From Chlorophyllum brunneum (taxonomy: Eukaryota; Basidiomycota; Agaricomycetes; Agaricales; Agaricaceae): a stretch of DNA of 64,000 nt. The notes below the pieces were generated by a model. The model was not told the origin of the DNA. It did not search any database and worked only from the letters and a program-made list of their open reading frames with translations. The stretch covers positions 2,232,001-2,296,000 of the forward strand of contig OY756141.1 in NCBI GenBank assembly GCA_963576785.1. The letters run 5' to 3'. Positions within the stretch are counted from its first letter, which is position 1. Every line of letters begins with the position of its first letter. Of the stretch, positions 32,835 through 64,000 are shown in pieces. The position numbers and the translations under genes were made by a program.

Positions 32835-33136
32835 TGTTACGACCTTAGTCTGAGACTCAGGTTGCAAGTCTTTGGATAAAGACAAGGAAGTAGAGAAGAG
32901 AGTAAGGGATGATATGATTCGTAAAGTGTAAGGAATACATCAAGTATTACTACACTTTATATACTAGTGGTATGGGGTAAGAATAAGGGAGCAGAGTAAA
33001 GGAGTCATAGGGGATGAGTAGAACGAGTCAGTAAGAGTACAGCCATAAGGGATGAAACAAGGAGGCGAAGCAGATACATTGGAATGATAAAGGTGACGGG
33101 TGCATAATAGAAATGTACTGTCTATAGTTCATAACA
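32835..33136 (-). repeat. gypsy 5' LTR
   Basis: 302 bp, pairs with 26772-27077. Roughly 97-98 percent identical by eye, with differences that are transitions plus one 4 bp indel. Confidence 0.92.
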
Positions 33137-33141
33137 CCAGC

Positions 33142-33834
33142 CTCCCTAATTGTGACTCCATTGTTTTGTTCACTGACTCCCTTGGCTCAGCTAAGAGAGC
33201 GGTGGACCCTTCCGTTCACTCTGGTCAGGCTCACTCGCTTGCTGTGTGCAACACCCTTATAGAGTGGTTTGGGGGTCACCCTGAATGCTCTCTTCACATC
33301 TGGCACACGTACTCTTCGGAGAAGTGGGCCATTCATGGTACTGTACACCAGTACTGCACCAAACTTCAGGTCACTGCAGGTTCCCATCCACAAACCTCCC
33401 TTGACTCCCTTCATCAAAAGGTTGTCAAATCCTGCCAGGATGCCTGGATCACTTGATTCCAGGATCCTACTTACTTGGGTAGCCAGTTTATGGCTCTCGA
33501 AGGGCACAACGGTAAGCCCCTCCAGCCCACTTACCTCCATGGAGGTTTGTGGCTGCCCTCCGCTGCAGTAGAGTCCAACTCACTGTCCGCCTGCATATGT
33601 AGAGTTATACTCAACCATGTGCCTATCAGGGCCTATAGGTCTCGGTTCTTCCAGGATGAACCATTCTGGTGTCCATGTGGGGCTCCTTTTGAGTCTCGTG
33701 TGCATATTCTTACCTCTTGTTCAAGGTTCAACTCCTCTAGGGGGTACCCAGCTATGCCAGGTGCCCTTGTCAAGTTTTTGAAGGCAAACCCTCAGGTGTT
33801 TGCCTTCCCATCCATTCCTCAGGGAATTGGATAA
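33142..33834 (+). pseudogene. LINE-A ORF2 C-terminus (continues from 26252-26771)
   Basis: RNase H end (SIVLFTDSLGSAKRAVDPS) and terminal zinc motif (CPCGAPFESRVHILTSC), stop at 33832-33834. The two halves are separated by the gypsy element, whose duplication ccagc restores the junction in ATSLPNCD. An in-frame stop follows DAWIT at 33457. The LINE-A 3' UTR runs from 33835 to 34350. Confidence 0.8.
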
Positions 33835-34371
33835 CTGGCTTAGGGTAGGTGGGTTATTGTCCAGCACTGGAAAATTCTGGTGGAAGTCCAGCGAAGACCT
33901 TCGGAGTTTTATGAATGGAGTTGTCCCCTTCGGCAACTAGGTATAGTGAAGATGCTGATAGCCACACAAATGGTGTGGCCTATTACTCTGGCAAGAGTAA
34001 CTGTGGCTGGGGGGATGACTCCTAGTAAGAAGGACTCCGGGGGCTAGTAGCAGGACTGGTAACTGGGGACTTCTAGCACTGGGCATTTATGGTGAACTGA
34101 CACTTACTGACTGGGTCACTGGTTGGGGGACCTCCCTACCCGCTTGCCTCCTCTGGCGTCCACTCCCCTTGCCCTCTGGGCTTGGGAGTAGGACACAATT
34201 CTGTCTACTGTTGGTTTTGGACAACAGTACGTCTGCTTGGTGGGGTGTGTCCACCACTTTTCCATAGATACCCGCTAGTTTACTCATTTGTACTCTGGCC
34301 ACAGGCTGTGTTCGAGCACTGTGTAATAAATCGGCCTTAGGCCACGATTTAAAAAAAAAAAAAAAAAAAAA

Positions 34372-34740
34372 ATCTTCATCGAACCCACCTAACTTGCCAA
34401 AATCCTCCCCCAGGTGATGGTGAGATTGTGCGTAAAGGGGTACGTGAACCCCTCCTTCCAGTAGGAGTTTGAAGGATGTCTGGTGGTCTTCTAGTACGAC
34501 TAGATTCATGCAGACGATGGATGGGTCCTGAGGAGGAAGCTTGGATGGTGTCAAGGGTGTCAGGGGACTCAGGGACATGGCGCCTGGTCCCCCCACTGAA
34601 TAGGGGTTGCGATGACATACAGAAAGGCTACGGGTGTGTTCCTAGGGGGCTAGGACACCAAAATAAGCAAGTACAATGACTTTGACGATGAGGATGAGTT
34701 GTTTATGCTTGTTTAATGGTAGAAGTACCAAATCAAGAAG
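34372..34740 (-). other. LINE-B ORF1 N-terminus and probable 5' UTR, minus strand
   Basis: Leftward reading gives an N-terminal ORF1 segment (SGGTRRHVPESPDTLD, reversed 34376-34618). The last ~70 bases before 34741 have no other copy in the window and may be LINE-B 5' UTR or filler between two head-to-head LINE-B elements. Confidence 0.5.
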
Positions 34741-35751
34741 TGATGTCCCTTCGCTTCCTCTGGACAGGGTTCTCACCATGGGTAAGCAAGCCTCTCCTCC
34801 CAAGTCCAAAGCCTCTAAGAAGAGGCCTAGGATGACCACCGCTGGCCCCTCATGGTGCCAAATCATTGTTGACTTCGAGGCTACCCCCAAAGTCTCCTCT
34901 TTCCACCTTGAGACCATGGTTAACCATGGTTTCGTGGACTCACACCTTCATATTTGAGTAGAGTCTACCTCTGCTGAGTACAGGGGTTTTGCTCTGCGTA
35001 CCAATGCTGTCCCCACTCCTGCTAACCTTGAGGTTGCCAGGATGTGGATTTTGAAGGCTGTCCCTCAGGGAACTGTTTTTACAGTTGGCCTTCCCCAGTC
35101 AAAGTCCTATCTCAAGGTCATCAATGTCCCTTACTTTAGGATTGGCAAGACTTGCTGGTCCTCATTCGAGATTGAGCAGATCATGAAATGCACTGCATTT
35201 TCTAACCTATTCATGTTAATGGGACCCCCCTGTATTTCGAGGAACTCCGAGGCATCTGATACTGCCACAGTGTACTTCAATATTCATGACTTGCAGAAGA
35301 GTCAATAGGCGAACCTCCTCCTCCAGAAGTCACTCCATATTGGTGGATATGCCTGTCCTATCAGGCTGTCTGCAGCCTCTCCAGGGGTGTCTTTGTGCAA
35401 GTGATGCTTCCACTGGGGCCACCCCATTCAATTCTGCAAGGCGCAGGCCTTGAAATGCCCAATCTGTGGTGGTCCTCATCACAAGGAGCATCACCGAACT
35501 CTCTGTGGTCACTACAAGGGTAATTTTAGTGTGCAGTCCCCCATTCCTCCCACACCGGCAGCTGAGCCTTGTCCTCATACACTGCATTGTCTCAACTGTC
35601 AAGGTCCGCACCATATGACCTCGAATAAATTTCTTGATGCTCAGTTTGAACCCAAGAAAATCAAGAAGTTCTATTGTGAGGTGAGTAACAACTGTCTTTG
35701 ATAGCAATCTCCCCTCACCAACCCTCGTACTCTACAGCTTGCCAATGAATA
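34741..35751 (+). pseudogene. LINE-B ORF1 (C-terminal two thirds)
   Basis: Segments match KASKKRPRMTTAGPSWC, then VNVPYFRIGKTCW-type sequence and zinc knuckles C-x2-C...H...C (CFHWGHPIQFC, CPICGGPHHKEHHRTLC, CLNCQGPHH). Stops include TAG at about 34957, TAG at 35306 and TGA at 35699-35701; the minus-strand copy has CGA at the equivalent of the last one (complement 16182-16184). The frame ends at TAG 35749-35751, overlapping the ORF2 ATG (35745) as ATGAATAG. Confidence 0.8.
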
Positions 35752-36554
35752 GGCGACCTTTGGAACTACGAAGTCTTCATGTATACCAGCAGAATCTTAA
35801 TAAAAATTATGATTTATTGGATACTTTACTGGAGAATCTCAAAGATCACTTTGATATTCTCTTCATTCAAGAACCTCCCTGGCAGTTCATCAGATCTGCT
35901 CCCTCCACAACTTCTGTCAAGGGGGACAATGTTATTGGCGCCCCCAAGCACCCTGAGTGGCTGTGCATGGTTCAGGCCCCGGAGCCTAGCTCTGACCCAT
36001 AGGTTATGACATTTGTCCATAACCAGTTGGCTTCTCTGAGACTGTCCTATCGGACAGATCTCATCAATCACTGTGACATCATGGTTTTCTCCCTCTTTTT
36101 GGGGGGTGAGACCCAGAATCTCATGAATGTTTACTCTGATTCAGAGCACACAACAATTCGGTTCCTTTTGGACTGATCTGCTACATTACCTAGGCACATC
36201 TATATGGGCAGCAAATTCAATTGCCATTCTGAGCTTTGGGACCCTAACTATGGCTTCCACTTGGGTACCTTGCAGTCTCTAATCTCCATCAGGACAGACA
36301 TCAGTCTAGACCTTGCCCTTCCGGTCGAGCCTGGGCCTACTCACATTCTGCACAATAAGGATCTTCGACCTTCAGTTATTGATCTTTCATTTGTTCCATC
36401 AGACCTGTCTATTTCCCATAGACCTAGGTTAGATTACTCCCTTAGGGGTCCATCAGACCACGTTCTGTTGGTTCTGGTGCTTCCAGTCACATCCACAATA
36501 GTGGAGACTCACAAGAAAACCCTGCCACATGATGGTGGTGAGGAGGGGGTGCTC

Positions 36555-37472
36555 AGCCAGGGACATTCCCTGGCTGTGTGTCGCCTTCTGTTGGAATGGT
36601 TCAGGGATTGTTCTGACTGTTCCCTCACTTTCTGGTCCGTTCTATCGTCGGCAAAATGGTCCATCCATTAGGAGGTGCATTTATTTGCCACCAACCTTCG
36701 AGTCGCCCCTGGACGTTGTCCAGAGACGTCTATTGACTCGCTGTATAAGCTCAATGTAGCAACTGTCCAGAAGGCCTGGAAGGTTACCTTCCAGGACTCC
36801 TCTTATTGTGGTTCTAACTTCCTTGTTCTCAAGGACAGTAAGAACAAACTTTTACAGCCAATGTACCTCCATGGGGGTTCTTGGCTTCCTTCCTTTCCCT
36901 CTCAGTCTATTGCGACGAGGGCAAATTGTGCCATTCTCGGGCATGCACCGACCAGCGAGTATTGCTCCCGGTTTCATCCTCTAGAGCCTATTGGCTGCGA
37001 ATGTGGGGCTCCTTTGGAGACTCGCACTCATATCTTGTGCTCTTGTCCTTTGTACAAGAGACGTCGTGGCCTGCCGGTCTCTATTGACCAGCTGGTATCC
37101 TTTCTTAAACGTAATCCTTCTGTGTTTGCATTTAAGGCCAACACACCCCTTGCAGGAGTTGGATAATGCAGCGCAACCCCTGCTAGCTCCCCACGTCTCT
37201 GGCCTGTGTAGGAGTTAATTGCAAATTGATACATACTCTCCCTAGGGAGGGGAGGCAAGGGGTCGCTTGCATATCTAGTCTAAGATTTGTGCGCCCGTGC
37301 ATGTTTCTATGACTGTTCACTCAGACCGCCTGTTGGCAGTCTAGTTTGGCCAGGGGAGAGCCCATCTTCATATTATACTCTTTTTGTAGCCTACATGTCA
37401 TAGTAGATACAGGTGGACTGCAATCGTGCACCACCTTAAACATGATGAATTAAAAAAAAAAAAAAAAAAAAA
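36555..37472 (+). mobile_element. LINE-B 3'-end insertion in LINE-B endonuclease
   Basis: Starts at the RNase H segment and runs to poly(A) 37452-37472; the ORF2 tail has its stop at 37164-37166. Duplications are gaggagggggtgctc (36540-36554) and gaggagggagtgctc (37473-37487). The minus-strand LINE-B keeps 80 bp of the same insertion at 15250-15329. Confidence 0.88.
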
Positions 37473-40620: not shown

Positions 40621-42100
40621 GACAGACAAGTGGTCTATGCAGCGACAGACACAAGTCTGCCACTGATTGGAGACTACTAGGCGGTTTCGGCTGCCCACAT
40701 TTATAGGGGAACACATTTGCTTCTTGTATTGCATCACCCAGCTGGCAAAGTCACAGCCCCAGACACTGAGCTTTTTGCTATTCATATGGCTCTGGGAACT
40801 GCTGCGGCGGTCTCTGAGGCTGTACACATTGCGGTCTTCACGGACTCAATTGGCTCTGCCAAGAGAGCTCTCGACCCGTCCGTGCACTCTGGCCAGGAAC
40901 ACTCCCTGGCTGTTTGTCATCTCTTGTTGGATTGGTTCAGGGATTGTCCTGACTGCTCCCTCACTTTCTGGTCTGTTCCATTCTTGGCAAAATGGTCCAT
41001 TCATCAGGAGGTGCATTTATTTGCCACTGATCTTCAGGTTGCTGCTGGATACAGTCCAGCAACATCTATCAATGTGCTGTGTAAGCTCAACGTAGCAACT
41101 GTTCAGAAGGCCTGGAAGGTTACCTTCCAGGACTCCTCTTATCAAGGTTCAAACTTCCTTGTTCTCAAGGATAGTAAGAACAAAGTCTTACAGCCGATGT
41201 ACCTCCATGGAGGTTCTTGGCTTCCTTCCTTTCCCTCTCAGTCTATTGCAACGAGGGCGAATTGTGCCATCCTTGGGCACATACCAACTGGCAAGTACCA
41301 CTCCTGGTTCCATCCTCTAGAGCCTGTTGGCTGCGAGTGTGGGGCTCCTCTGGAGACCTGCACTCATATCTTGTGCTCTTGTCCTTTGTACAAGGGATGT
41401 CATGGCCTGCTGGTCTCTATTGACCAGCTGGTAGGTTTCCTTAGGCATAACCCTTTAGTATTTGCATTTAAGTCCAATACACCACTTGTAGGAGTTGGAT
41501 AATGTGATGCGGCCCCTGCTAGCTCTCCACGTCTCCGACGTGTGTAGGAGTTAATTGCATACTCTCCTTAGGGAGGGGAGGCTAGGGGTCGCTCATCATT
41601 CTGGTCTAGAACTCGCGCATCCACACATGTTTCCATGACCATTCACCCAGACTGCCTGTTGGTAGTCTAGTTCAGCCAGGGGAGAGCCCGTATTCTTTTA
41701 CCTACCTTTGTAGCCTACATGTCATAGTAGATACAGGTGGACTGTGATCGCACACCATCTTAAACATGTTGATAAAAAAAAAAAAAAAAAACAATGTATG
41801 CTCCCTTAAGGGTGTCCAAGTTCTCATCCCAGGTTTTAGCCTGGGTGACAACAGTACCGTTGTCAACATATGACAACAGAGTACTCCCAGGGGAAGTAAT
41901 CCACAAATTGAATACCCTCATGAGAGGGGCGATATAGAGGCCAGAGAGGACTGGGGACATGGCAGAGTCCTGTCCAATGCCCACATCTGCACCCTGGTAT
42001 TGCTTCTTTTCCCGGAACTCCTACCTGTCAATCATGTGATCACCCCTTCGTCGACACTCTTAACGTCCTACACGTCCGTCCAAGGCAGTGAGCACTCCTA

Positions 42101-42116
42101 GTACGGATTTCCGTAC
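42101..42116 (+). other. Hairpin before LINE-A ORF1
   Basis: GTACGGA, a two-base loop and TCCGTAC form a perfect 7 bp stem, 15 bases upstream of the ORF1 ATG (42132). No other LINE-A copy in the window reaches this region, so conservation cannot be judged. Confidence 0.5.
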
Positions 42117-42131
42117 GGGCCCCTAGCCCCC

Positions 42132-44111
42132 ATGCCTACTCACAGTTCGAGGAGGAGGACGAGTGCCTATCGCGAGGCCTCCTCAGATGACGACGACATG
42201 GCTACTGCCTTTGAGGCAGCAGCCGGTCCCCCCCCCAGGTCCACTCCAGGCCCTTACTCTCTGGGTATCCCCCCTTACGGCAGCAGTGCCAGGGATACCT
42301 ACGCCCCTGCAGTTCCCCTTCAGCAGAGGGGATGCACTCCATCGCGACATGGGTCCCCAACCCCCTCTTGACCTATCCCAGCTCCTGGTGCAGAAGCCAG
42401 GGCTTTGTCCCTCCCCCCATCTTCCCCTCCCCCTCCCACCCCAGAGGCTATGGAACAGGATGACCAGGAGGAGCCTACCACCGCCCTCCTCTCTATCCTG
42501 GGCATTAATATTAGTGCCAGAGAGGACGCCGATGCGATCCAATGGTCGCTTGAGATTGTCACTGACTTCATGAAGACGGCGCATCTCATTCCTCAGGAGG
42601 ACACTCTGTCCTTCCATCCCATCACCTCTCGACTATCTGAGATAGTCCAGACGGTTGCATCCTCCCCCATGTGGCGTGAAACCTACACAGGGGCGAGTAA
42701 TTCTTTCTCCCTGAGGGACTCAATCACTTCGGTATTTCCTGCTCTCCCAGTGGTGACTTATAGGCCCCTGGCTACCCCCCCCCAGGGTACCAGGACCTTC
42801 TACCCTCAGCCCCCCCCAGTGCAGAGCCCCTGTGCAGGAGGAGGACGATCTCATGGATCCGGAGAAGACTCCGGTCAAATGCCCGTGCATGGACCCTAAG
42901 GGGAAGGCACCTGTCCGACCTGTTAAGGCCCCTACGAAGCCTCAGGTCCCCTACGAGAGGCCCTCTGGGCCTCCCCCCCCATGATCGCTTCGAAGCCCAA
43001 GCCAGGACAGAAGGCTTACTTGGCTGCAGCAAAACAACTGGCCTCGTCCAAACCTGGGATAGAACCGCTCTCTGCATTGAAAGTGGCCTTCCCCCACCTC
43101 TCTGCAGAGCAGCTCCTCAGTCTTCATTCGCAAGCTAAGGCTGCAAAGCAATCTCCCTCGTTGAACGCTTGCCCTAAGAAGCCAGCATTCATGATTCCTG
43201 GACCATCACGAAAGCAGGTCCTGGTTTCCTATGAAGACAAGTCGAATGCCTTGGCTGGTCTCCATACTCTTACCCAGCAGGCCTGTAAGGCGTTGAAGGC
43301 TGGGAGAAGCTCTCTGATTGTGGAAGGTGCCACACTCGCATATGATGGCTATTCCATGGCCACCAACAAACTCGCCACAACCAAGGACATTGAGATCCTT
43401 AGGGCGTTGGTTGAACGTCTGTCCCCTCCAGGAGCCCCCTTCTGGATTGGACTCCCATCTTCGGTGTCGTACCTCCGTGTGGTTGACGTCCCGTACCTCA
43501 AGAACTCTGCCGCTGGAGTTCCGTGTACTCCAGCAGATGTCGAGAAGGTTCTTACCTCGTCGGTGCATGCTCCCCTCATCAGCCTGAAGGGTCCCCCTAG
43601 GCTGGTGCGCAACTCCAGGATGTCTGACTCTTGTACGGCGTTTTTTGACATCTGGGACTCCATGAGGGGTACCCGAGCTCTCGGTCTTCTGAATAAGAAG
43701 ATCATGTTTGGGAACAAGCAGTGCAGTATACTCTCTGCTAACCCTCGCCACAATGAGTCACTATGTACCTGCTGTTACAAGTGGGGCCACACCTCCTCCT
43801 GGTGCAAGGCCAATGGCCCTGCATGTCCCGACTGTGCTGGGGCACATTCTCGTGCCAACCACTGCACTTTTGCACTGTGTTGTAAGGGGCAACCGAAGGC
43901 TACGCCTCCAGTTCCTGCTACCCCTGTTGGTCAACCATGCCCCCATCCTCCTCATTGTTGTAACTGCAAGAAGGAGCATCCCACTGATTCCAGGAAGTGC
44001 GCTTTCTGGAACCACAAACATGACCGGGCCTGGCTGACAGCCCGTTATCGAGAGGTGCATGACAGACGTCATCGCTCTCCCATCCCCCCTCATAACCCCC
44101 CTTATGTCTAG
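42132..44111 (+). pseudogene. LINE-A ORF1 nucleic-acid-binding protein
   Basis: About 660 codons. The N-terminus is Ser/Pro rich and acidic; 42405-42770 is helical (EIVTDFMKTAHLIPQ). A TGA at 42369-42371 and C runs at 42775-42783, 42810-42817 and 42974-42981 shift the frame; the second reading (DPEKTPVKCPCMDPKGKAPV, 42855-42915) looks like the true protein between the shifts. The open 42981-44111 part carries a 140-residue domain (FWIGLPSSVSYLRVVDVPYL) and three knuckles: CTCCYKWGHTSSWC (CX2CX4HX4C), CPDCAGAHSRANHC and CCNCKKEHPTDSRKC. The stop overlaps the ORF2 ATG. Confidence 0.85.
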
Positions 44112-47100
44112 GAACAACCTGGGCTGTCTGGAGGGCATTAGGGTATTTTCATTTAATGTCGCGAAATCGTTTATCTACGTTGATGTACTGCTCGAGAAGT
44201 TAAAAGACGATTTTGACATTCTCTTTTTCCAAGAACCTCCGTGGAGGTTCATCTGCTCCACTCCCTCAACCACTGACGTGGAAGGGGATGATGTTACTGG
44301 CACACCCAAGCACCCTGACTGGCTTATGATGGTGTGCCCCCCTACCCAGGGATCCCTGCCCCGAGTGATGGCGTATGTACACACTCGGTTGCAATGTCTA
44401 AGGCCATCAATGAGGAGGGACCTTGTTGATCACCCTGATATCTTGGCACTGACGCTCTTTACTGATGCGAAGGCCCTTAATTTCCTGAACATCTACTCAG
44501 ATGATCAGCATACCGCCATCAACTTCCTTCATGAGAAGGTGGATGTTCTTCCCCCACTCGACTTTATGAGTGGGGACTTTAACTGTCATTCTTTGGAGTG
44601 GAACTCTGAGGTTCTGCATCATCGAACGACAGCTCATAGGCTTATGGAAATGAGCTGTGATCTTGGTCTCGATTTGGTTATGCCAGCCAACCCGGGTCCG
44701 ACGTTTGTTTCCCACAACCCAGATCTCCGCCCATGGGTGATTGATCTGGTGTTCATCTCATCTCCCGATGCATCAAGGACTTTTCCTTATCAAGATATAT
44801 CTCTGCAGGGTACTTTGGATCATGTTCTGCTGACCGTCACCCTTTCCATCACCCCCGTTGACATCGGGGTTGTCAAATCTGTCCTACCGAAGGGTACTAA
44901 CAAGGAGGAGGCCTTTCTGGGACACGTCATTGATGAGGTGACTGATCTTTCTGATCGTCCCTCTCCGGAATCCCCGGATCAAGTGGATGCCCTGGCTTCG
45001 GCTGTGGCTGAAGCCTTCTCTGACGCATGGACCCACCACTCAAAGGAGATCCGGATTACTCACCGCACTCATCCCTGGTGGGACAAGGCGTGCTCTACCT
45101 CCTTTTCCAGGTACCAGGACTCTCGTAGTCATGGTGACTGGGGGGACTTTAGGCAAGCTCGCACAGCCACCAAATGACAATTCTTCGATTCTAAGATTGA
45201 GGAGATTGCCTCCACCAACAAGCAGCCATGGAACCTTATGGAATGGGTCAAGGTACACAAGTTGCCCCCCTGCGAGGCTATCCAGTTTAATGGATAGCCT
45301 TGTCATGGTATGGACTCCCTCTGGGATGCCCTCCATTCGACTTACAACTCTGCTACTGATCGGCGGTGTGATACGTCTGTCCTTGACCCCCTCCCAGACC
45401 TTCCTGTCTGGGAGTGGCCCCCCTTCTTGGCGCTGGAACTCAAGGAGGCTCTGTCCTCCTGTTCTAATACATCCTCTCCAGGGCTGGACCATGTTACGTG
45501 GTCCCACCTTAAGTACATCGTCATCGATGAAGATTGTTTGACGGTGTTCCTGCGCTTGGCCAACACCTGCCTCACGGTGGGGCATTGGCCGCACAGCTTT
45601 AAGGAGTCGCTTTTGGTTATCATTCCGAAGCCAGGAAAGCCCTCCTACTCTACCCCCAAGGCATTCAGGCTGATTGTCCTCTTGAACACGCTTGGTAAAC
45701 TGGTTGAGAAAATGCTTTCCAACCACATCCAGTTTGATGCCATTAAACATGACATCTTTTATCCCCATCAACTTGGAGGCATTCGCCAATGTTCCACTGA
45801 GGATGCCGGGTTGTTCCTTATCCACCTGGTTCACGCTGGGTGGGCTAAAGGCCTCAAGACAAGCGTGGTCGCCTTCGACATTGCTCAGTTCTTCCCCTCT
45901 CTGAACCATGAGATGCTCATGGCCATTCTTGCCAAGCAGGGGTTCCCACTTAACGTGCGAACCTTTTTCGCTTCATACCTGGTGGGCCGTTCCACTGTTT
46001 ATACATGGAACGGCTTCTCCTCTGATCCCCGGGGCACAGACGTGGGCGTCGGACAGGGCTCTGCCATGTCCCCTGTCCTCTCTGGCCTCTATATCGCACC
46101 TCTTATGAAGGTTTTCGACTTGCAGATCACTTCCCCTGGGAGTACTCTGCTGTCATATGTCAATGACGGTACTGTCATTGCCCAGGCTAAGACCTGGGAC
46201 AAGAACTTGGATACCCTCAAGGGGGCATACATTGTTCTCTTTAATCTTTTTGTAGCATTCACGCTTGTCATAGAGCATGACAAGTCTGAGCTCTTCCACT
46301 TCTCCAGAAAGCCTGGAGACGTCAATCCCCCCCTTGACTTGGGCTTCAGTCCATTCACAGGGGACACCCCCCTCCGCCCTAAGACCTATTGGAGGTACCT
46401 GGGCTTTTACTTCGATCGTGCCCTGAATTTTCAGGAACATGTTCGACATTATTCCACCAAAGCCCTCTCCACCATGAAAGTGATGGGGATGCTGGGTAAC
46501 TCCTCCCACGGTCTGACCCCCAAGCAGAAGTGGCTCCTCTTCAGGTCATGCGTCATGCCTATTGCAACGTATGGCTTCCGTCTGTGGTACTTTGATAAGA
46601 CTTGGTGTAAGGGCCTCATCAAATCCCTTAATACTATGCAACGCAAGGCTGCGTTGTGGATCACCGGTGCATTTTGCACCTCTCCCTCTGGTGGCGTCGA
46701 AGCCCTAGCTGGTCTCATCCCCATCCACCTCCATCTGAAGAAGTTGTCCTCAAGAGCGAACTACTGTCTCCCTACCCTCTCCAATACTCACCCTCTTCGA
46801 TCCCTACTCGATCGTCCAAACGCCAAGGGTGCCCCCCCACACCCCCTCTCCATCTCCCTCCTGTCTGACTGTCTCATCAGGCAGGTCAAAGGTTCCCTTA
46901 TGGAAGCCGTTTCCATGCTCCCATCCCTCACTGAACAGTTTGACCCCTGCTCTGCAGTGGCTCAACCTGGTCACCGTTTCCTGGACCACTTTGCAGCCCA
47001 GGTCTCCTTCCACGACTCTCCTTGTTCATGTGATAAGAGGGCTGTGCATATAAGGCATTTGAATAGCACTTTGGAACGTGCTAATACCAATCCTCGGGTT

Positions 47101-47970
47101 CTCACTGTGGCCACGGACGCCAGTCTACCACTGCGGGGGGAATTCCAGGCAGTTTCCGCTGCCCATATTTACCGGTCAGGCCAGCATGTCTTCCAGACAA
47201 GACACGCGGCAGGTCAAGTGACAGCTCCTGATGCTGAGCTGTACACTATCCGGATCGCAATTGGAAAGGCCACCAGCCTTCCTGATTGTGACTCTATTGT
47301 CCTGTTCACCGACTCCCCTGGCTCAGCCAAGAGAGCGGTGGACCCCTCTGTTCACTCAGGTCAGGCTCATTTGCTTGCCATGTGCAATGCTCTCATGGAG
47401 TGGTTCGAGGGTCATCCCAAGTGCTCCATTCACATCTGGCACACCTACTCTTCAGAGAAGTGGGCCGTTCATGGTATCATACATCAGTACTGTACTGAGC
47501 TACAGGTTGCTGCGGGTTCCTGTCCACAAACCTCCCTCAACTCCCTTCGTCAGAAGGTTGTCAAATCCTGCCAGGATGCCTGGATCACTCGATTCCAGGA
47601 TCCTACTTACTCGGGTAGCCAATTTATGGCTCTCGAAGGGCGTAATGGTAAGCCCCTCCAGCCCACTTACCTCCATGGAGGTTCGTGGCTGCCTTCTGCC
47701 GCAGTGGAGTCTAACTCGCTGTCTGCCCGCATGTGTAGAGTTATTCTCAACCATGTGCCTATCAGGGCCTATAGGTCTCGATTCTTCCAGGATGAACCAT
47801 TCTGGTGTCTATGTGGGGCTCCTTTCGAGTCTCGTGTGCATATTCTTACCAACTGTAGTCAGTTTGACACCTCTAGGGGGTACCCTGCCACACTTGGTGC
47901 CCTCGTCAAGTTCTTGAAAGTGAACCCTCAGGCGTTCACTTTCCCATCCGTTCCTCAGGGAATTGGATAA
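44104..47970 (+). pseudogene. LINE-A ORF2: endonuclease, RT, RNase H, zinc motif
   Basis: About 1,290 codons in one frame. The endonuclease (44150-44860) has QEPPW, SGDFNCHS, VIDLVFISS and DHVLLTVTL. RT (45540-46450) has VIIPKPGKPSYS, AFDIAQFFPSLN, GVGQGSAMSPVL and the box YVNDG, in which the first catalytic Asp is Asn. RNase H (47090-47470) has VATDAS, DAELYT and FTDSPGSAKRA. The C-terminus has CLCGAPFESRVHILTNC. In-frame stops: TGA 45175-45177 (Gln in the copy at 59455) and TAG 45295-45297 (Gln in the minus-strand copy near 51390). Initiation is at ATG 44104, overlapping the ORF1 stop (ATGTCTAG). Confidence 0.88.
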
Positions 47971-48585
47971 TTGGCTCAGGGTAGGTGGGTTATTGTCCAG
48001 CACCAGAAAACTCTGGCAAAAGTCCGGTGAAGACCATTGGAGTTTTATGACCAGAGTTGTCCCCTTCGGCAACTAGGTGTGGTGAAGACACCAATAGCCA
48101 CACAAATGGTGCGGCCAATTACTCTGGCAAGGGTGACCGTGGCCAGGGGGATGACTCTCAGTAAGAAGAACTCTGGGGGCTAGTAGCTAGGCCAGTAACT
48201 GGGGGTTTCCGTGCTGGACATTTGCGGTGAACTAACACTTACTGACCGGGCCTGGTCTTCGGACTGGGTCACTAGTTGGGGAACCTCCCTGCCCACTTGC
48301 CTCCTCTGGCATCCACTCCCTCCACCCTTCAGGCTCAGGAGTAGGACACAATTCTGTCTACTATTGGTTTCAGGCAATGGTATGTCTGCTTGGTGGGGCA
48401 TGTCCACCACTTCTCCGTAGATACCTGCTAGATTACTCTTTTGTACTCCGGCCATGGGCTGTGTTTGAGCACCGCATAATAAATTGGCCTTAGGCCACAA
48501 TTTAAAAAAAAAAATCTGCACCCCGGGGATCAGAGGAGAAGCCATTCCATGTATAAACAGTGGAACAGCCCACCAAATATGAAGC

Positions 48586-50019
48586 CATCGCTCCTTGACT
48601 TGTTACCACCACCATCACTTTTCCACTTCCCTTTCCTCATTGCACCATTCGTTTCTCGGGCTCTCTCTCATGGGCTCGTGTCTTTTCTGAGCCTTTGCTG
48701 GCTGTAGGGGGGCGGTCCAGGTGGCAACGTTAGTCAGTCAATGGGCGGCATGCCCTTGGTAAAGGCAATTAAAGGTGGGCATATCCCCACTGTTCATCTG
48801 ACTGATGCCTATATGCACAGATCAATGAGGCGGCCCCTTGGTAAAGGGTCTTAAAGGCTGGGATACTGGCCACCTCGCTCGCTTGTGCTCGCTGGGTCAT
48901 CAGTGGTGGCGGCCCTTCTACCAATTAGATGGGCTTGCAGTCCCATATAGGGTTTGCATGTGGGTTTTTACCCCTGCTGCAGGTCAAGTCTGGCTAGTAT
49001 CTTGAGGCTGGGCTATACCAGCTGACAACGGACATCCAGGCCCACCCCCAATCGTGCTTGCATGTTGGTGGGGAGCGTGCTGAAAAAAGCCGCCCTGTCG
49101 CACCCGAAAGGGACCGAAAGGATAGGGGACAATAATAGGGGGAACAAAGTGATAACAAGCCGACCGAAAGGACAGGCCACCCCCCACCAGTGTCGCCATG
49201 CCTTTGGGAACCCCTCTGGGGGTAGCGCCTGGTTGTTAGTAGGGATACACCAAACTCTAGGGCATGGGCAGGTTCGGGTTGACTCAGGGAAACTCGGGTT
49301 GATTGGCGCCCATTCCGCGGAATGCTTAAGTAATCCATTCCGCGGGTTGCTTAGGTAATCCAATGTGAACACCACCCTGGTAACGCCCCCTGTGAGATAG
49401 AGATCCCTGCCAGTATTAGCACGCGGATCCACGCCCAAAGACAAGTCGCCTTCTCTGGGGGTAGGGCATAGCAAAAGTGGCTGCGGGGGAACGGGAAGCT
49501 AGTCCAGGGGTCGTGCCTTGGAGGTATGCCTTTGTGGCCTCTGCCTGCCCAACTAGTGGACTGTAGCGGGCCGTTTCCTGGGAGCGTGCTGAAAAAAGCC
49601 GCCCGGTTACCGAGAAGGAGCGGCCCAGCTCGAGAGGTCAAAATCCTCTGTCGGTGGGTCCCCATGAAGATCGGGGTGTACCCATTTGAGTTGTTACCAT
49701 GCGAGAGGTCTGGTTTTGGGGTAGCAGCATGTGTAGTCAAGCAGTGAGATCCCATCCATGCACCATATAGGAAGGATGCCTCAAGCGAACGGCGGGCCGG
49801 TCCTCAGGGATACTGCGCTCTCTCAGTAGCGGGGTATTCGCCCAAGCTAAAGGCTTTACCTCTTAGGAGGGAGGGGCAAAGTCCCCGCAACATGGCTGGA
49901 TGCGACACCAATATGGGAGCCTGGGAACATGCTGGGCATTCTATGGGCACACAACATCTCAAAACCCCCATCTCTGGGCCTCTAGGAGCTTTATTCCCTC
50001 AAGGGGCTCCATACACGGG
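48586..50019 (+). repeat. RNA-2 element, plus strand
   Basis: 1.43 kb, full length by comparison with 6822-9032. Motif copies GTGCTGAAAAAAGCCGCC at about 49078 and 49587. The region around the second motif is alignable with RNA-1 (gctcgagagg...aaatcct), so RNA-1 and RNA-2 share a related 3' half. It contains T4 and T5 runs in sense (near 48617 and 48964), so RNA polymerase III transcription is unlikely. No coding function is recognised. Confidence 0.8.
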
Positions 50020-50392
50020 CTCTTATCGCGGTTCTAACTTTCTTGCTCTCAAGGACAGTAAGAACAAACTGCTATGGCCAACGTACCTCCATGGGAGTTC
50101 TTGGCTTCCTTCCTTTCCCTTTCTGTCTGTTGCGACAAGGGCAAACCGTGCCATTCTCGGGCACATACCGACTGGCAAGTATTGCTCCTGGTTCCATCCT
50201 CTAGAGCCTGTTGGCTGCGAGTGTGGGGCTCCTCTGGAGACCCACACTCATATCTTGTGCTCTTGTCCACTGTACAAGAGACGTCCTGGCCTGCCGGTCT
50301 CTGTTGACCAGCTAGTATCTTTTCTTAAGCGTAATCCCTCTGCGTTTGCGTTTAAGGCCAACATACCAATTGCGGGAGTTGGATAATGCAGC
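50020..50392 (+). pseudogene. LINE-B ORF2 C-terminus (in RNA-2 chimera)
   Basis: Last ~120 codons of LINE-B ORF2 with the zinc motif CECGAPLETHTHILCSC, stop at 50384-50386. The frame happens to be open into the end of RNA-2 (from 49892), giving an artificial fusion reading frame. The LINE-B 3' UTR follows to 50670. Confidence 0.75.
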
Positions 50393-50670
50393 GCGACCCC
50401 TGCTAGCTCCCCACATCTCTGATGTGTGTAGGAGTTAATTGCAAATTGATGCATACTCTCCCTAGGGAGGGGAGACTAGGGGTCACTTTGCATGTCTGGT
50501 CTAGGATTCACATGTTCATGCATGTTTCCATGACTGTTCACCCAGACCGCCTGTCGGTAGTCTAGTTCGGCCAGAGGAGAGCCCATCTTCGTGTACCCTC
50601 TATTGTATGTACATGTCATAGTAGATACAGGTGGACTGCGATTATGTACCACCTTAAACATGTTGTTTTG

Positions 50671-50703
<33 letters not shown>

Positions 50704-50714
50704 AAATACGAAGC

Positions 50715-52580: not shown

Positions 52581-53238
52581 AAGGGGGGTTATGAGGAGGG
52601 ATGGGAGAGCAACAACATCTATCATGCACCTCTCGATAATGGGCTGTCAGCCAGGCCTGGTCATGCTTGTGATTCCAGAAAGCATACTTTTTTTTTTTTT
52701 TTTTAAAATCATGGCCTAAGGCCGATTTATTACACGGTGCTTGAACACAGCCCGTGGCCGGAATACAAACGAGTACTCTAGCGGGTATCTACGGAGAAAG
52801 AGTAGCCACGCCCTACCAAGCATAAGTACCATTGCCCAAGACCAACGGTAGGAGGAATTGCATCCTACTCCCGAGCCCGAAGGGCGAGGGGAGTGGACGC
52901 CAGAGGAGGCAAGTAGGCAGGGAGGTCCCCCAACCAGCGACCCAGTCCGAGACCAGGCCCGGTCAGTAAGTGTTAATTCACTGCAAATGCCTGGAAATGG
53001 AAACCCCCAGTTACCAGTCCAGCTACTAGCCCCCAAAGTTCTTCTTACTGAGAGTCATCCCCCCGGCCATGGTCACCCTTGCCAGAGTAATTGGCCACAC
53101 CATTTATGTGGCTATTGGCGTCTTCACCACACCTAGTTGCCAAAGGGGACAACTCCGTTCATAAAACTCCAATGGTCTTCACCAGACTTTCACCGGAGTT
53201 CTCCGGTGCTGGACAATAACCCACTTACCCTGAGCCAG

Positions 53239-54393
53239 TTATCCAATTCCCTGAGGAATGGATGGGAAAGCGAACACCTGAGGGTTCGCTTTCAAGAACT
53301 TGATAAGGGCACCCGGCATGGCAGAGTACCCCCTAGAGGTGTCAAACCGACTACAGTTGGTAAGAATATGCACACAAGACTCAAAGGGAGCCCCGCATGG
53401 ACACCAGAATGGTTTGTCCTGGAAGAATCGAGACCTATAGGCCCTGATAGGCACATGGTTGAGTATAACTCTACACATGCGGGTGGACAGCAAGTTGGAC
53501 TCTGCTGTGGCGGAAGGCAGCCACAAACCTCCATGGAGGTAAGTGGGCTGGAGGGGCTTACCATTGTGCCCTTCGAGAGCCATAAACTGGCTACCCAAGT
53601 AAGTAGGATCCTGGAATCGAGTGATCCAGGCATCCTGGCAGGATTTGACAACCTTCTGATGAAGGGAGTCGAGGGAGGTTTGTGGATGGGAACCTGCAGC
53701 GACCTGAAGTTTGGTGTAGTACTGGTGTACGGTACCATGAATGGCCCACTTCTCCAAAGAGTAGGTGTGCCAGATGTGAAGAGAGTGTTCAGGGTAACCC
53801 CCAAACCACTCTATAAGGGCACTACATACAGCAAGCGAATGAGCCTGGCCGGAGTGAATGGAGGGGTCCACTGCTCTCTTAGCAGAGCCAAGGGAGTCAG
53901 TGAACAAGACAATGGAATTGCAACCAGGGAGGCTGGTAGCCTTTCCAATTGCAATCCAGATAGTATACAGCTCCACATCAGGAGCTGTCACTCGACCCGC
54001 CGCATGCCTTGTCTGGCAGACACACCAGCCTGACCAGTAGATATGGGTAGCAGAAACTGCCCGGAACTCCCCCCGCAGTGGTAGACTAGCGTTCGTGGCC
54101 ACAGCGAGAACCCAAGGATTGGCATTAGCACGTTCCAAGGTGCTATTCAAATGCCTTATATGCACAGCTCTCTTGTCATGAGAACAAGGAGAGTTGTGGA
54201 AGGAGACCTAGGCCACAAAGTGGTCCAGGAGACAGTAACCAGGCTGAGCTGCTGCAGAGCAGGGGTCAAACTGTTCAGTAAGGGATGGGAGTACCAAAAC
54301 GGCTTCCATAAGGGAACCCTTGACCTGCCTAATGAGGCGGTCAGACAGGAGAGAGATGGAGAGAGGGTGTGGGGGGGCACCCTTGGCATTCAG
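53239..54393 (-). pseudogene. LINE-A ORF2 C-terminus (RNase H) in RNA-1 chimera
   Basis: Open from about 54165 to 53239 (VATNASLPLRGEF, DVELYTI, LFTDSLGSAKRA, CPCGAPFESCVHILTNC). The first catalytic Asp of RNase H is Asn and the Glu region reads DVELY. A stop from CAG lies near 54210. LINE-A 3' UTR occupies 52705-53238. Confidence 0.78.
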
Positions 54394-55076
54394 CCTGTGT
54401 ACGGAGCCCCTTGAGGGATCTCTTACCACCAGCCTTAGCCAATGGTGACGTGGAATCAACTTGAGCTGGAACCTGGCTATTTTTCCTGTACTAGGCCAAC
54501 CAATGTAGGATTTAGTCCTCTCAAGCCAGGTGAGCATTCTCTGATAACTGGCAGCTTTTTTCAGCATACCCTGGTACATCACCTGCTATGGCCTACAACT
54601 TCACCCAGGCACTACCCTGGAGTTGCTTCCTGTTCCTCAGCAGCCGGTTCGGTATGCCTTACAGCCCAGATCCCTGTGCTTAACTGTCTGAGATCTACAT
54701 CTTGCAGACACCACTACCAGATTGGTCCTGAGGTTATTTTAAGCCAACTTAGTCAGCATCCTCAATCTAGAGATTGGGTTATGTCTACTAACTACTGGAA
54801 CTATGCTGAAGCAGACCGGGAGGGGTATCCTATCTCGGCGGCTTTTTTCAGCACGCCCCGAGTCGGACTGTTATCACAACATTCCCCTTCTTATAATGCC
54901 CTATCTCCAGCAGTGGCTTAGGTAATCCTCCCAAGTTAGGCCCTGGCATTAAGGCACCACCACCTTTGGCCAATATTGGACTTGGGCGATGCACACAGCT
55001 GGGTCACACCATGACAGTGTGATGTCACTATGTGACTTGCTATGTGGCTGGGTGTGACAACTCCCATGCTAGCCTG
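54394..55076 (-). repeat. RNA-1 element, 5'-truncated, minus strand
   Basis: Complement of RNA-1 without its tRNA-like head; the copy ends in CAGGCTAGCATGGGAG of the body. The plus strand holds an open frame of 159 codons (54442-54921) that is also open in the copies at 56465-56944 and 62733-63212. Confidence 0.85.
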
Positions 55077-55122
55077 CAGAAAGCACACTTCCTGGAATCG
55101 GTGGGATACTCCTTCTTGCAGT

Positions 55123-56101: not shown

Positions 56102-56992
56102 GGTTGGCCTAATGGTCGAGTGGTTTGGGTGTAGGCTTAATTCCTACCAGGCTGCTTGGCTAGAAGGTCCTGGATTCGAAATCTGTGGGGGGAGATTTAT
56201 TCTCAACCATGGGAAGTACCAGTGCATGAGGCGTGGTTGCTTAGCAATATTCCCGGGTGACACTGGATTAGGTTGTGTGGTCCTGTTTGGCATTGTTTGG
56301 TGCTGTCACAGGCTAGCATGGGAGTTGTCACACCCAGCCACATAGTAAGTCACATAGTGATGTCACACTGTCACGGTGTGACCCAGCTGTATGCATCGCC
56401 CAAGTCCAATATTGGCCAAAAGGTGGTGGTGCCCTAATACCGGGACCTAACTTGGGAGGATTACCTAAGCCACTGCTGGAGATAGGGTATTATAAGAAGG
56501 GGAATGTTGTGATAACAGTCCGACTTGGGGCGTGCTGAAAACAGCCGCTGAGATAGGATACCCCTCCCAGTCCGCTTCGGCATAGTTCCGGTAGTTAGTA
56601 GATATAACCCAATCTCCAGATTGAGGATACTGACTAAGTTGGCTTAAAATAACCTCAGGACCAATCTGGTAGCAGTGTCTGCAAGGTGTAGATCTCAGAC
56701 AGTTAAGCACAGGGATCTGGGCTGTAAGGCATACCGAACCGGCTGCTGAGGAACAGGAAGCAACTCCAGGGTAGTGCCTGGGTGAAGTTGTAGGCCATAG
56801 CAGGTGATGTACCAGGGTATGCTGAAAAAAGCTGCCAGTTATCAGAGAATGCTCACCTGACTCGAGAGGACTAAATCCTACATCGGTTGGCCTGGTACAG
56901 GAAAAATAGCCAGGTTCCAGCTCAAGTTGATTCCATGTCGCCATTGGCTAAGGCTGGTGGTAAGAGACCCCTTAAGGGGCTCCATAGACGGG
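56102..56992 (+). repeat. RNA-1 element, full length
   Basis: About 891 bp starting GGTTGGCCTAATGG. A-box TGGTCGAGTGG at 56112, anticodon stem-loop GTAGG-CTTAATT-CCTAC, long variable arm, B-box region GATTCGAAATC at 56173. Motif copies at about 56532 and 56818. I see no run of four or more T in sense. The 3' end is AAGGGGCTCCATAGACGG. Confidence 0.88.
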
Positions 56993-57927
56993 CCGTACAT
57001 TCTGGCCAGGGACATTCCCTGGCTGTGTGTCACCTTCTGTTAGAATGGTTCAGGGATCATCTTGACCGTTCTCTCACTTTCTGGTCCGTTCTGTCATTGG
57101 CGAAATGGTCCATCCATTAGGAGGTGCATTTATTTGCCACCGACCTTCGAGTTACCCCTGGATGTTGTCCAGAGACATCTATTGACTCGCTACATAAGCT
57201 CAACGTAACAACTGTCCAGAAGGCCTGGAAGGTTACCTTCCAGGACTCCTCTTATCACAGTTCTAACTTCCTTGCTCTCAAGGACAGTAAGAACAAACTT
57301 TTACAGCCAACATACCTCCATGGGGGTTCTTGGCTTCCTTCCTTTCCCTCTCAGTCTATTGCGACGAGGGCGAATCGTGCCATTCTCGGGCATGCACTGA
57401 CCGGTGAGTATTGCTCCCGGTTTCATCCTCTAGAGCCTATTGGCTGCAAATGTGGGGCTCCTTTGGAGACTCGCACTCATATCTTGTGCTCTTGTCCTTT
57501 GTACAAGAGACATCGTGGCCTGCCGGTCTCTATTGACCAGCTGGTATCCTTTCTTAAGCATAATCCTTCTGCGTTTGTGTTTAAGGCCAACACACCACTT
57601 GCGGGAGTTGGATAACACAGCACGACCCCTGCTAGGTCCCCACGTCTCTGGCATGTGTAGGAGTTAATTGTGAATTGACACATACTCTCCCTAGGGAGGG
57701 GAGGCGAGGGGTCGCTTGCATATCTAGTCTAAGATTCACGTGCCCATGCATGTTTCTATGACTGTTCACCCAGACCGCCTGTCAGTGGTCTAGTTTGGCC
57801 AGGGGAGAGCCCATCTTCGTATTATACTCTTTTTGTAGCCTACATGTCATAGTAGATACAGGTGGACTGCAATCATGTACCACCTTAAACATGATGAATT
57901 AAAAAAAAAGAAAAAAAAAAAAAAAAA
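56102..57927 (+). mobile_element. RNA-1::LINE-B chimeric retrocopy (cleanest example)
   Basis: RNA-1 from its tRNA-like head to its 3' end (56102-56992), LINE-B from VHSGQGHSLAVCHLL of RNase H (56993) through 3' UTR to poly(A) 57900-57927. Duplications gacatttgggactcc (56087-56101) and gacatctgggactcc (57928-57942). No other element is nested inside, so the unit can be read end to end: 1.83 kb, head at base 1 and tail at the last base. Confidence 0.93.
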
Positions 57928-62018: not shown

Positions 62019-62370
62019 AGGCCTCAGCCCCTCCGGTGGGGCTGGTGTGGAATGCACCAGTGATCCACAATGCAGCTTTCCACTGCATAGTGTTAAGTTG
62101 TTTCAGAAGGGCCTTGTTGCGAGCACCCTCGTAAAACCACAAACGAAACCCATATGTGGCAATAGGTACCACACATGAGCGATACAGAGTCCTCTTCTGA
62201 TTAGGAAGAAGGCCTCGTGACGAGTTGCCAAGCATGCCCATGGCCTTGACTGTGGACAGAGACTTAGTAGCATAATGTCGAACGTGCTCTTTGAACGTAA
62301 GAGCTCGATCGAACCCAAGTACCTCCAGTGGGTCTTAGGGCATAATAGAGTATCGCCAGTATGGGAAGCA
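62019..62370 (-). pseudogene. LINE-B ORF2 piece (RT C-terminus), inverted
   Basis: Leftward reading gives GSIELLRSKST..., GMLGNSSRGLLPNQKRTLYRSC, YGFRLWFYEGARNKALLKQLNTMQWKAALWITGAFHTSPTGGAEA in pieces. It is the same region as 2860-3185 of the first LINE-B copy. The right end stops at the codons for PHTG, next to RNA-1. Confidence 0.82.
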
Positions 62371-63260
62371 GGTTGGTCTAATGGTCGAGTGGTTTGGGTG
62401 TAGGCTTAATTCCTACCAGGCTGCTTGGCTAGAAGGTCCTGGGTTCAAAACCTGTGGAGGGGGATTTATTCTCAACTGTGGAAAGTACCAGTGCGCAAGG
62501 CATGGTTGCTTAGCAATATTCCTGGGTGACACCGGATTAGGTTGTGTGGTCCTGTTTGGCATTGTTTGGTGCTGTCACAGGCTAGCATGGGAGTTGTCAC
62601 ACCCAGCCACATAGTAAGTCACATAGTGATGTCACACTGTCACGGTGTGACCCAGCTGTATGCATCGCCCAAGTCCAATATTGGCCAAAGGTGGTGGTAC
62701 CTTAATGCCGGGGCCTAACTTGGGAGGATTACCTAAGCCACTGCTGGAGATAGGGCATTATAAGAAGGGGAATGTCGTGATAACAGTCCAACTCGGGGCG
62801 TGCTGAAAAAAGCTGCCGAGATAGGATATCCCTCCCGGTCCGCTTTGGCATAGTTCCAGTAGTTAGTAGACATAACCCAATCTCTAGATTGAGGATACTG
62901 ACTAAGTTGGCTTAAAATAACCTCAGGACCAATCTGGTAGTGGTGTCTGCAAGGTGTAGATCTCAGACAGTTAAGCACAGGGATCCAGGCCATAAGGCAT
63001 ACCGAACCAGCTGCTGAGGAACGGGAAGCAACTCCGGGGTAGCGCCTGGGTGAAGTTGTAGGCCGTAGCAGGTGATGTACCAGGGTATGCTGAAAAAAGC
63101 TGCCAGTTATCAGAGAATGCTCACCTGGCTCGAGAGGACTAAATCCTACATTGGTTGGCCTAGTACAGGAAAAATAGCCAGGTTCCAGCTCAAGTTGATT
63201 CCACGTTGCCATTGGCTAAGGCTGGTGATAAGAGACCCCTCAAGGGGCTCCATAGATGGG
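62371..63260 (+). repeat. RNA-1 element, full length
   Basis: 890 bp. A-box TGGTCGAGTGG, loop CTTAATT, B-box GGTTCAAAACC. Motif copies at about 62799 and 63088. No T4 run seen in sense. The minus strand has a 159-codon open frame (62733-63212). It ends AAGGGGCTCCATAGATGGG. Confidence 0.88.
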
Positions 63261-64000
63261 TCGCTCTCATGACCCCTGCTCAGGCAGTCAAGGTCAAAGG
63301 GCCAGTCACAGAGGCAAACTCTTGTTTGCCAGACTTAACGGAGACGTTCGAGCCGTTTGTGTTCGAAGTGTCGCCAGGTTCTTGTCTCCTGGACCGCTAC
63401 GTGGCTCAGGTGACTTACAAAACATATGACGCCTTGCTCGGTGGAAACCCTGCAGGTCGTCAGGTGGATTTGCTCAACGATACCCTTTGTGGGTATCGTG
63501 AGGATAGACAGGTTGTCTATGCAGCGATGGACGCAAGTCTGCCACTGGTTAGGGACTTCCAGGCAGTTTCTGCTGCCCATGTTTATAGGGGGACATGTTT
63601 GCTTTGTACAATGCATCACCCAGCTGGCAGGGTTACAGCCCCAGATGCTGAACTTTTTGCCATTCATATGGCGTTGGGAACTGCTGCGGCAGTTTCTGAG
63701 GCTGTACATATTGCAGTCTTTACAGACTCGATTGGCTCTGCCAAACGAGCTCTTGACCCATCCATACATTCTGGCAAGGACATTCCCTGGCTGTGTGTCA
63801 TCTTCTGTTGGAATGGTTCAGGGGTCACCCTGACCATTCCCTTACTTTCTGGTCTGTTCCGTCATCAGCAAAATGGTCCATTCATCAGGAGGTGTATTTA
63901 TTCGAGTCGCTGCTGGATGTTGTCCAGAGACGTCTATTGACTCGCTGCGATAGCTCAATGTAGCAACTGTCCAGAAGGCCTGGAAGGTTACCTTCCAGGA
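63261..64000 (+). pseudogene. LINE-B ORF2, connection and RNase H
   Basis: Open for most of its length (63206-63940 including RNA-1 codons): FEPFVFEVSPGSCLLDRYVAQVTYK, then RNase H with MDASLPLVRDF, DAELFAIHMALG and FTDSIGSAKRALDPS. The Arg codon after GSAK is CGA (63746-63748), the ancestral form of the TGA at 3817. A one-base loss near 63776 (SGKDIPWL) shifts the frame, and about 20 bases are missing near 63903. The sequence leaves the window in LINE-B. Confidence 0.82.

Follow-up and report, generated by a model that had tools for sequence, protein, structure and literature searches.

RNA-headed LINE insertions in Chlorophyllum brunneum: breakpoints match a putative guide inside the donor RNA

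RNA-headed LINE insertions in the window

The stretch of DNA analysed here, referred to as the window, comprises 64 000 nucleotides of Chlorophyllum brunneum (assembly GCA_963576785.1, contig OY756141.1, positions 2,232,001 to 2,296,000, forward strand) and holds a series of composite insertions in which a LINE is headed on its 5' side by a second RNA in the same orientation. The heading RNAs are called RNA-1, RNA-2a and RNA-2b, "guide" denotes a segment of four nucleotides within each of them, TSD stands for target-site duplication, and ^ marks a LINE breakpoint. The features of the window that matter for the argument are as follows.

48572-48585, + strand: left TSD, ACCAAATATGAAGC (sequence, shuffle test)
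48587-50019, + strand: RNA-2a, full length, about 1433 nt, ending in CTCCATACACGGG (sequence comparison)
49146-49149, + strand: guide position of this RNA-2a, reading AAAG (decayed; consensus GGAG), immediately 5' of TGATAACA
50020-50669, + strand: LINE-A 3' end, directly after the RNA-2a end
50670-50700, + strand: poly(A) tail, closing the LINE-A side of the 48586-50700 unit
50701-50714, + strand: right TSD, ACCAAATACGAAGC (sequence, shuffle test)
4144-9036, - strand: RNA-2a (9036-7683 and 6895-6822) joined to the LINE-A RT region (6821 downwards), TSD-flanked
25366-26251, + strand: RNA-1, full length, with its guide at 25765-25768 and LINE-B following from 26252
52688-55086, - strand: 5'-truncated RNA-1 (55086-54394) joined to LINE-B (54393-52705), poly(T) 52688-52704, weak TSD
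56102-57927, + strand: RNA-1 (to 56992) joined to LINE-A (56993-57900) and poly(A), TSD GACATYTGGGACTCC
62373-64000, + strand: RNA-1 (to 63260), then LINE-A from 63261, recurrent breakpoint GATCGA^TCGCTC
1247-4148, + strand: exception, RNA-1 nt 1-409 joined to LINE-A, the RNA-1 part stopping beside its own guide
42000-48514, + strand: near full-length LINE-B starting with a 5' end of its own, without RNA-1 or RNA-2 (sequence comparison)

The unit at 48586-50700 had been described in the original prediction as a LINE headed by RNA-1 or RNA-2, and it is confirmed as RNA-2 and LINE-A within one TSD pair and closed by poly(A). All seven composites listed there are present, with some corrections: the unit placed at 62019 starts with RNA-1 near 62373, the bases 62019-62370 being antisense LINE-A, and the copy at 1247 is indeed RNA-1 followed by LINE-A, but it holds just the first 409 nt of RNA-1, so that its junction (window position 1654) lies inside RNA-1 and away from the RNA 3' end. 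Six of the seven RNA copies in the window keep the RNA 3' end, and the copy at 54394-55086 is without about the first 190 nt of RNA-1. By reading of matches, five of the 16 LINE 3' ends with tails in the window belong to RNA-LINE composites.

Two composites are interrupted by younger sequences. The one at 4144-9036 is split by later insertions of LINE-A (6896-7682) and LINE-C (about 6256-6765); its RNA 3' end is the same as in the 48586-50700 unit, but it is joined to another LINE-A point, in the RT region. The LINE-B of the composite beginning at 25366 reaches its poly(A) at 34351-34372 with later insertions in between. LTR retrotransposon ORFs were also recognized by reading, Copia-type at 17500-23200 and gypsy-type at 27200-34000, the latter sitting within the RNA-1/LINE-B composite 25366-34372. 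In addition, two LINE-A copies (35550-37472, +; 16338-15249, -) pass from ORF1/EN directly to the RNase H part at the 3' end, as with a common internal deletion, and an RT-region start follows the second of them at 15249.

The donor RNAs

The donors form three families of structured non-coding RNA: RNA-1 is about 890 nt long and RNA-2a and RNA-2b about 1430 nt, and all three end in GGG. RNA-1 and RNA-2 are not independent of each other: the part that begins at the guide and runs through the 3' end is homologous between RNA-1 and RNA-2a, with 66% identity over 469 columns, and RNA-2a and RNA-2b share 92.5% over the same part. The head of RNA-2 is unlike that of RNA-1. The RNA-1 majority sequence opens with a segment resembling tRNA-Leu(UAA) (ARAGORN, default threshold); at this threshold no tRNA was called in RNA-2, nor was one called in the decayed window copies, and TTTT is absent from the RNA-1 majority sequence. 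The possibility that RNA-1/2 are simply the LINE-B 5' UTR was ruled out, as the near full-length LINE-B at 42000-48514 starts differently.

A segment, GCUGAAAAAAGCCGCC, occurs in two copies each in RNA-1 and RNA-2 (for example at 25785-25807 and 26072-26094) and at 215 sites genome-wide with at most one mismatch, compared with one site for the reversed control; this repeated segment is possibly a protein-binding or structural module. In one RNA-1 copy (L020, 925-1525) the stretch between two internal GCATGCTGAAAAAAGCCGC repeats is missing, as by slippage. In the last hairpin, a C-G pair has changed to U-A between RNA-2a (GGAGC/GCUCC) and RNA-2b (GGAGU/ACUCC), and folding of the three-sequence alignment gave 21 two-sided compensatory and 21 broken pairs, too few to name a fold. 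Five Rfam searches returned no credible family match for RNA-1/RNA-2, and one good RNA-1 copy and one good RNA-2a copy gave no match to the Rfam group I or group II introns at E<=10. A core-motif search for relatives elsewhere yielded five prokaryotic matches, about the number estimated for chance, and no viral match.

Among the differences of RNA-1 copies from the majority sequence, 919 of 1026 are G>A or C>T, an excess as in repeat-induced or methylation-linked decay, and no transversion recurs in more than two of 26 RNA-1 copies. Taken together, these two features make the RNA-1 copies look star-like, as from one source sequence, and they rule out self-diversifying SINE lineages. A pristine source gene was not found among the copies scored: of 40 RNA-1 copies scored out of 112 candidates, the closest to the majority sequence is 97% identical, and among 40 RNA-2 copies scored the highest identity is 98%, over 513 nt.

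Composites across the genome

The genome searched comprises 38.9 Mb in 14 contigs. The common RNA 3' end, CCYCTCAAGGGGCTCCRTASACGGG, is found at 86 sites with at most two mismatches and at none in the reversed control. Located through this 3'-end pattern or through RNA-1/RNA-2 matches, 96 distinct RNA 3' ends were read (71 RNA-1 and 25 RNA-2-type); as they were picked mostly by an intact 3' end, the constancy of that end is partly selected. Of these ends, 95 lead in sense into a LINE, one of them via RNA-2. A sense match to LINE-A, LINE-B or LINE-C lies within 400 nt in 89 of the 96 (blastn), five further ends lead into LINE protein sequence (L006, L019, L065, L069 and L086, the last read short as L024), and one RNA-1 end is followed by a truncated RNA-2, which leads on to LINE-A, forming a triple chimera. 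At the single end left over (L074), 343 nt of downstream sequence gave no placeable match by blastn or to LINE protein sequence. The RNA-2b 3' end has 31 sites genome-wide and none in the reversed control; 11 of the 12 read, three of which were already among the 96, lead in sense into a LINE, and no sense LINE match was found at the twelfth (L107). No stand-alone copy of RNA-1, RNA-2 or RNA-2b was seen among the ends read (the 96, with L074 unplaced, and the RNA-2b set). The RNA-headed insertions proposed from the window are thus a genome-wide reality, and the idea that RNA-1 and RNA-2 might usually stand alone finds no example among the ends read.

One TSD pair surrounds the whole composite in 13 of 18 cases tested (p<=0.01 against shuffles), which bears out the earlier view that the joined molecule was integrated in a single event, and supports LINE machinery as the agent. 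Weak junction matches take the place of a TSD at 52688-55086 and L016 (9 and 12 nt, p 0.115 and 0.07), and the shuffle test found no TSD at L014, L034 and L082.

The breakpoints range from the 5' region of the LINE to just past its last ORF, and 77 of them are distinct (48 RNA-1, 19 RNA-2a, 10 RNA-2b), with up to five copies at one site. In three groups of RNA-1 copies with the same breakpoint, identity is 0.926, 0.932 and 0.939 within the group and 0.927, 0.931 and 0.931 between groups, and L050 and L051 have a common breakpoint and different TSDs. A single fused master, an alternative already raised in the original prediction, is therefore not what the genome contains: breakpoints in LINE-A, LINE-B and LINE-C are scattered, and RNA-1 parts with the same breakpoint are no closer to one another than to the rest.

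LINE-A and LINE-B, previously regarded as unrelated, are about 67% identical at the nucleotide level in the RT region. The best protein match of the LINE-B RT ORF is an unnamed protein at 59% identity, and the nearest named proteins are those of agarics, with 52-53% in Candolleomyces and about 48-53% in Cyclocybe along almost the whole length. At C1:4575442 (L069), RNA-1 is joined to an RT region with about 50% protein identity to LINE-A/B, which probably represents a further LINE family. On another contig, two RNA-1/LINE-B composites (L089 and L090, C12:1694392 and C12:1694912) are oriented towards each other at a distance of about 500 bases and have identical first LINE bases past the RNA.

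Breakpoint motifs depend on the donor

Breakpoints were read with unbroken LINE copies supplying the bases missing from each chimera, and the motif sets contain one row per distinct breakpoint. Ends for which no unbroken LINE copy was available were dropped (7 of 71 RNA-1, 1 of 25 RNA-2, and L107 among the 12 RNA-2b); L090 was left out as the inverted neighbour of L089, and L086 stayed outside the RNA-2a set.

The motif differs with the donor: CGA^Y for RNA-1, CTY^Y for RNA-2a and a looser CCT^Y for RNA-2b. Over the 48 RNA-1 sites, position -3 is C (40 sites), -2 is G (41), -1 is A (32) and +1 is a pyrimidine (39). The 19 RNA-2a sites have C at -3 (17), T at -2 (19), and a pyrimidine at -1 (19) and +1 (16), and the 10 RNA-2b sites have C at -3 (8), C at -2 (8), T at -1 (7) and a pyrimidine at +1 (10); exact YCT is present in four of these 10. 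CGA precedes the breakpoint in 24/48 RNA-1, 0/19 RNA-2a and 0/10 RNA-2b sites against a LINE background of 0.8%, and CTY in 17/19 RNA-2a, 0/48 RNA-1 and 1/10 RNA-2b sites against a background of 5.0%. In the window, the breakpoint at 50020 reads GGACTC^CTCTTATC in intact LINE-A copies and fits CTY^Y. The signal is narrow: in the RNA-1 profile (49 rows, one breakpoint counted twice), all columns outside -4 to +1 carry at most 0.15 bits. In the triple chimera, the RNA-2 reads ATCGA^ at the point where RNA-1 is joined to it. In a small control of eight non-chimeric LINE truncation points, one of them an alignment artefact, neither CGA^ nor CTY^ occurs; the artefact row reads TCT^T and would fit RNA-2b.

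At most junctions the LINE begins immediately after GGG with no added bases. Microhomology was not detected: among the 76 of the 96 junctions with a close LINE match, match length is 0 in 68 (null 58.9), which rules out a microhomology-driven RT jump. Two junctions fall inside the RNA, one at window position 1654 beside the RNA-1 guide and one at L012 near RNA-2 nt 244.

A putative guide inside the donor RNA

The four nucleotides preceding a conserved UGAWAACA block, at a homologous position in all three families, are GUCG in RNA-1, GGAG in RNA-2a and GAGG in RNA-2b. The RNA-1 and RNA-2a tetramers are the reverse complements of their own LINE motifs and span the junction, with nt 1 of the guide paired to LINE +1 and nt 2 to nt 4 paired to -1 to -3; in RNA-2b, GAGG lies 5' of UGAAAACA and the same register predicts CC(U)^Y. 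The guide position was first chosen after the RNA-1 and RNA-2a sites were known and the register was set on those two families, whereas most RNA-2b sites were read after it had been set.

Pairing with the family's own guide averages 3.44, 3.84 and 3.60 of 4 for RNA-1, RNA-2a and RNA-2b, and all four pairs are formed at 25/48, 16/19 and 6/10 sites, respectively. The own guide ranks first of the 256 possible tetramers in each of the three families, the guide column is the sole one of 465 alignable columns to rank first for all three, and random LINE positions reached the observed pairing in 0 of 20000 sets per family. The register is sharp at shift 0 for RNA-1 and RNA-2a and less so for RNA-2b (with two loci counted twice, mean pairing is 3.67 at shift 0 and 3.25 at +1), and the RNA-2a guide fits RNA-2b sites fairly well (2.9 of 4). 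For RNA-1 alone, two other places, in the tRNA head and at nt 833, outscore the guide; both were rejected, since the UGAWAACA-linked site alone works across all three families. The block flanking the guide, TGATAACANNCCGAC, has 132 sites with at most one mismatch, but 42 in the reversed control.

Two LINE sites have been used by both RNA-2a and RNA-2b: ATTCCTC^CCAC by RNA-2a corresponds to ATTCCT^CC by RNA-2b, and GGACTC^CTCTT to GGACTCCT^CTT. At these common sites the junctions of the two families are one or two bases apart, as expected from their own guides. On this evidence, the choice of junction very probably depends on the guide.

Proposed mechanism and rival explanations

At the level of sequence, three things can be taken as established: the guide is complementary to the LINE site, the last G of the RNA is directly followed by LINE +1, and the whole is integrated in one piece with TSD and poly(A). 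The account we favour, and regard as fairly probable overall, is guided joining of the RNA to LINE RNA followed by LINE retrotransposition. The RNA or its RNP would cut LINE RNA at the guide-paired site, and the 3' end of the RNA would be joined to the 3' fragment of the LINE RNA, an outcome that would equal the first step of intron reverse splicing, with a 3'-OH attack on the guide-held phosphodiester. The polyadenylated chimera, RNA-(3' LINE)-poly(A), would then be copied and inserted by LINE proteins in trans, and the RNA would gain genomic copies by riding on LINE mRNA. That joining takes place at the RNA level and not during reverse transcription appears likely; catalysis by the RNA itself is a more tentative proposal, which we rate as somewhat less likely than not. 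Several observations count against guided joining: pairing is imperfect, RNA-2b sites are few and loose, some junctions lie inside the RNA, no catalytic RNA family is matched, and the 3' end differs from the AY of group II introns and precedes no known splice signal. Moreover, a paired block that stalls RT would give similar products.

This last point defines the main rival, which we consider rather unlikely: the guide would pair with LINE RNA, RT would stall there during target-primed synthesis and jump to the nearby RNA 3' end. The same guide data are accounted for, RT suffices, and both the L020 copy without the stretch between its own repeats, suggestive of RT slippage, and the 5'-truncated RNA-1 at 54394-55086 speak for it; yet a duplex of 4 bp is a weak obstacle, LINE +1 is paired too and nevertheless gets copied, and at most junctions the LINE follows GGG without extra bases. 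Template switching in its plain form, at RT pause sites and with the RNA as passive donor, was put forward for MINE in the available part of its description (PMC2104539), and its signs, an RNA of full length at the 5' side, a truncated LINE, one TSD pair and a triple chimera, are seen here as well. The original prediction likewise invoked RT switching. As a sufficient explanation this is not supported, because the breakpoint motif varies from donor to donor and each time pairs with four nucleotides of the RNA concerned, for which plain RT pausing offers no reason; in the same LINEs CGA occurs at 0/29 RNA-2 sites and CTY at 0/48 RNA-1 sites. Plain switching, improbable to us, appears largely refuted by this donor dependence.

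Guided joining also has to be weighed against cleavage of LINE RNA by a nuclease, followed by ligation of RNA-1/2 to the 3' fragment by a host RNA ligase, as proposed for U6/LINE-1. The exact ends and the absence of microhomology agree with such a route, and ligation is one of two mechanisms given for U6/LINE-1 in the part of PMC13174262 at hand, but an independent nuclease would produce a single motif and the motifs here follow the donor, which leaves this route with little probability. Repeated copying of a few fused master elements could explain why certain breakpoints recur in up to five copies; it is hardly credible in view of the 77 distinct breakpoints, the different TSDs of L050 and L051 at one breakpoint, and RNA-1 parts that are no closer within a breakpoint than between breakpoints.

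Implications

Chimeric LINE insertions have so far mostly been taken as accidents of RT or of RNA ligation. If the donor-encoded guide is real, such chimeras would be the product of a targeted RNA reaction, and LINEs would have a parasite preying on their mRNA. The old question of RNA joining versus template switching would become directly testable, and a small programmable RNA-joining activity might be gained. In a search judged by titles and the beginnings of abstracts, we found no account of guide-determined LINE chimeras.

Comparison with known systems

Group II and group I introns resemble the present system in that, after the first step of their reverse splicing, a structured RNA is linked through its 3' end to the 3' portion of a target chosen by a few base pairs that span or abut the junction (EBS1 with delta, or the IGS), and guides would differ between families by analogy with mobile introns. 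However, RNA-1/2 have no Rfam intron match and end in GGG rather than in AY as a group II intron does, and in comparison with group I introns, besides the lack of an Rfam match, RNA-1 targets have A at -1 in 32/48 sites rather than U. Unlike in mobile introns, the first-step product alone is seen, and the RNA is carried to DNA by the LINE. The tRNA-Leu(UAA)-like head of the RNA-1 majority sequence and the use of LINE machinery by RNA-1 recall tRNA-headed SINEs; in contrast to them, the RNAs show no poly(A) or LINE-like tail of their own and no solo copy among the 96 ends (one unplaced), and RNA-2 is without a tRNA at the default threshold.

The U6/LINE-1 chimeras of mammals carry a full-length small RNA in sense 5' of a truncated LINE-1 with TSDs, and RNA ligation or template switching has been proposed for their origin (PMC13174262, as far as the available part goes). 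Donors of this type are host RNAs, namely snRNAs, 5S rRNA and tRNAs, according to the same part of that source, in which neither a guide nor a donor-specific breakpoint motif is mentioned (PMC13174262). In the present case no known host small RNA gene corresponds to the donor, there being no credible Rfam match and no solo copy among the ends read.

The closest parallel, rightly drawn in the original prediction, is MINE of Magnaporthe, which has the same anatomy: a full-length non-coding RNA of about 1.1 kb (WEIRD) stands 5' of a 5'-truncated LINE (MGL) in the same orientation and with TSDs (Gogvadze et al. 2007, PMC2104539). The available part of that paper further reports a tripartite element, recurrent breakpoints, no solo WEIRD copies and no microhomology, suggests that WEIRD is a housekeeping RNA, and ascribes the breakpoint motif GCC^A/U to RT pausing at hairpins (PMC2104539). 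Among the representative sites of its Table 3, 13 of 14 distinct rows have G-Y-Y at -3 to -1 by our own count (PMC2104539), and a guide NGGC, deduced from the breakpoints alone, would fit these sites. RNA-1, RNA-2a and RNA-2b may possibly be mobile ribozymes or RNPs of a new, guide-programmed class, which would recognize about 4 nt of LINE mRNA, cut there and splice themselves onto the 3' part, with MINE/WEIRD as another member whose "RT pausing" motif would be a guide footprint; we advance this with reserve. If the guide is real, the GCC motif and the missing solo WEIRD gene of Magnaporthe would both be explained. MINE and the composites described here are alike in the sense fusion to a 5'-truncated LINE, the single TSD pair and the scattered breakpoints with a short motif, as far as the MINE description was available, and they differ in that here three homologous RNA families are combined with several LINE families and a donor-dependent motif matches an internal guide. 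Composite insertions are of a known kind, and it is the donor-specific, guide-matched breakpoint in three homologous families that changes which mechanism is likely.
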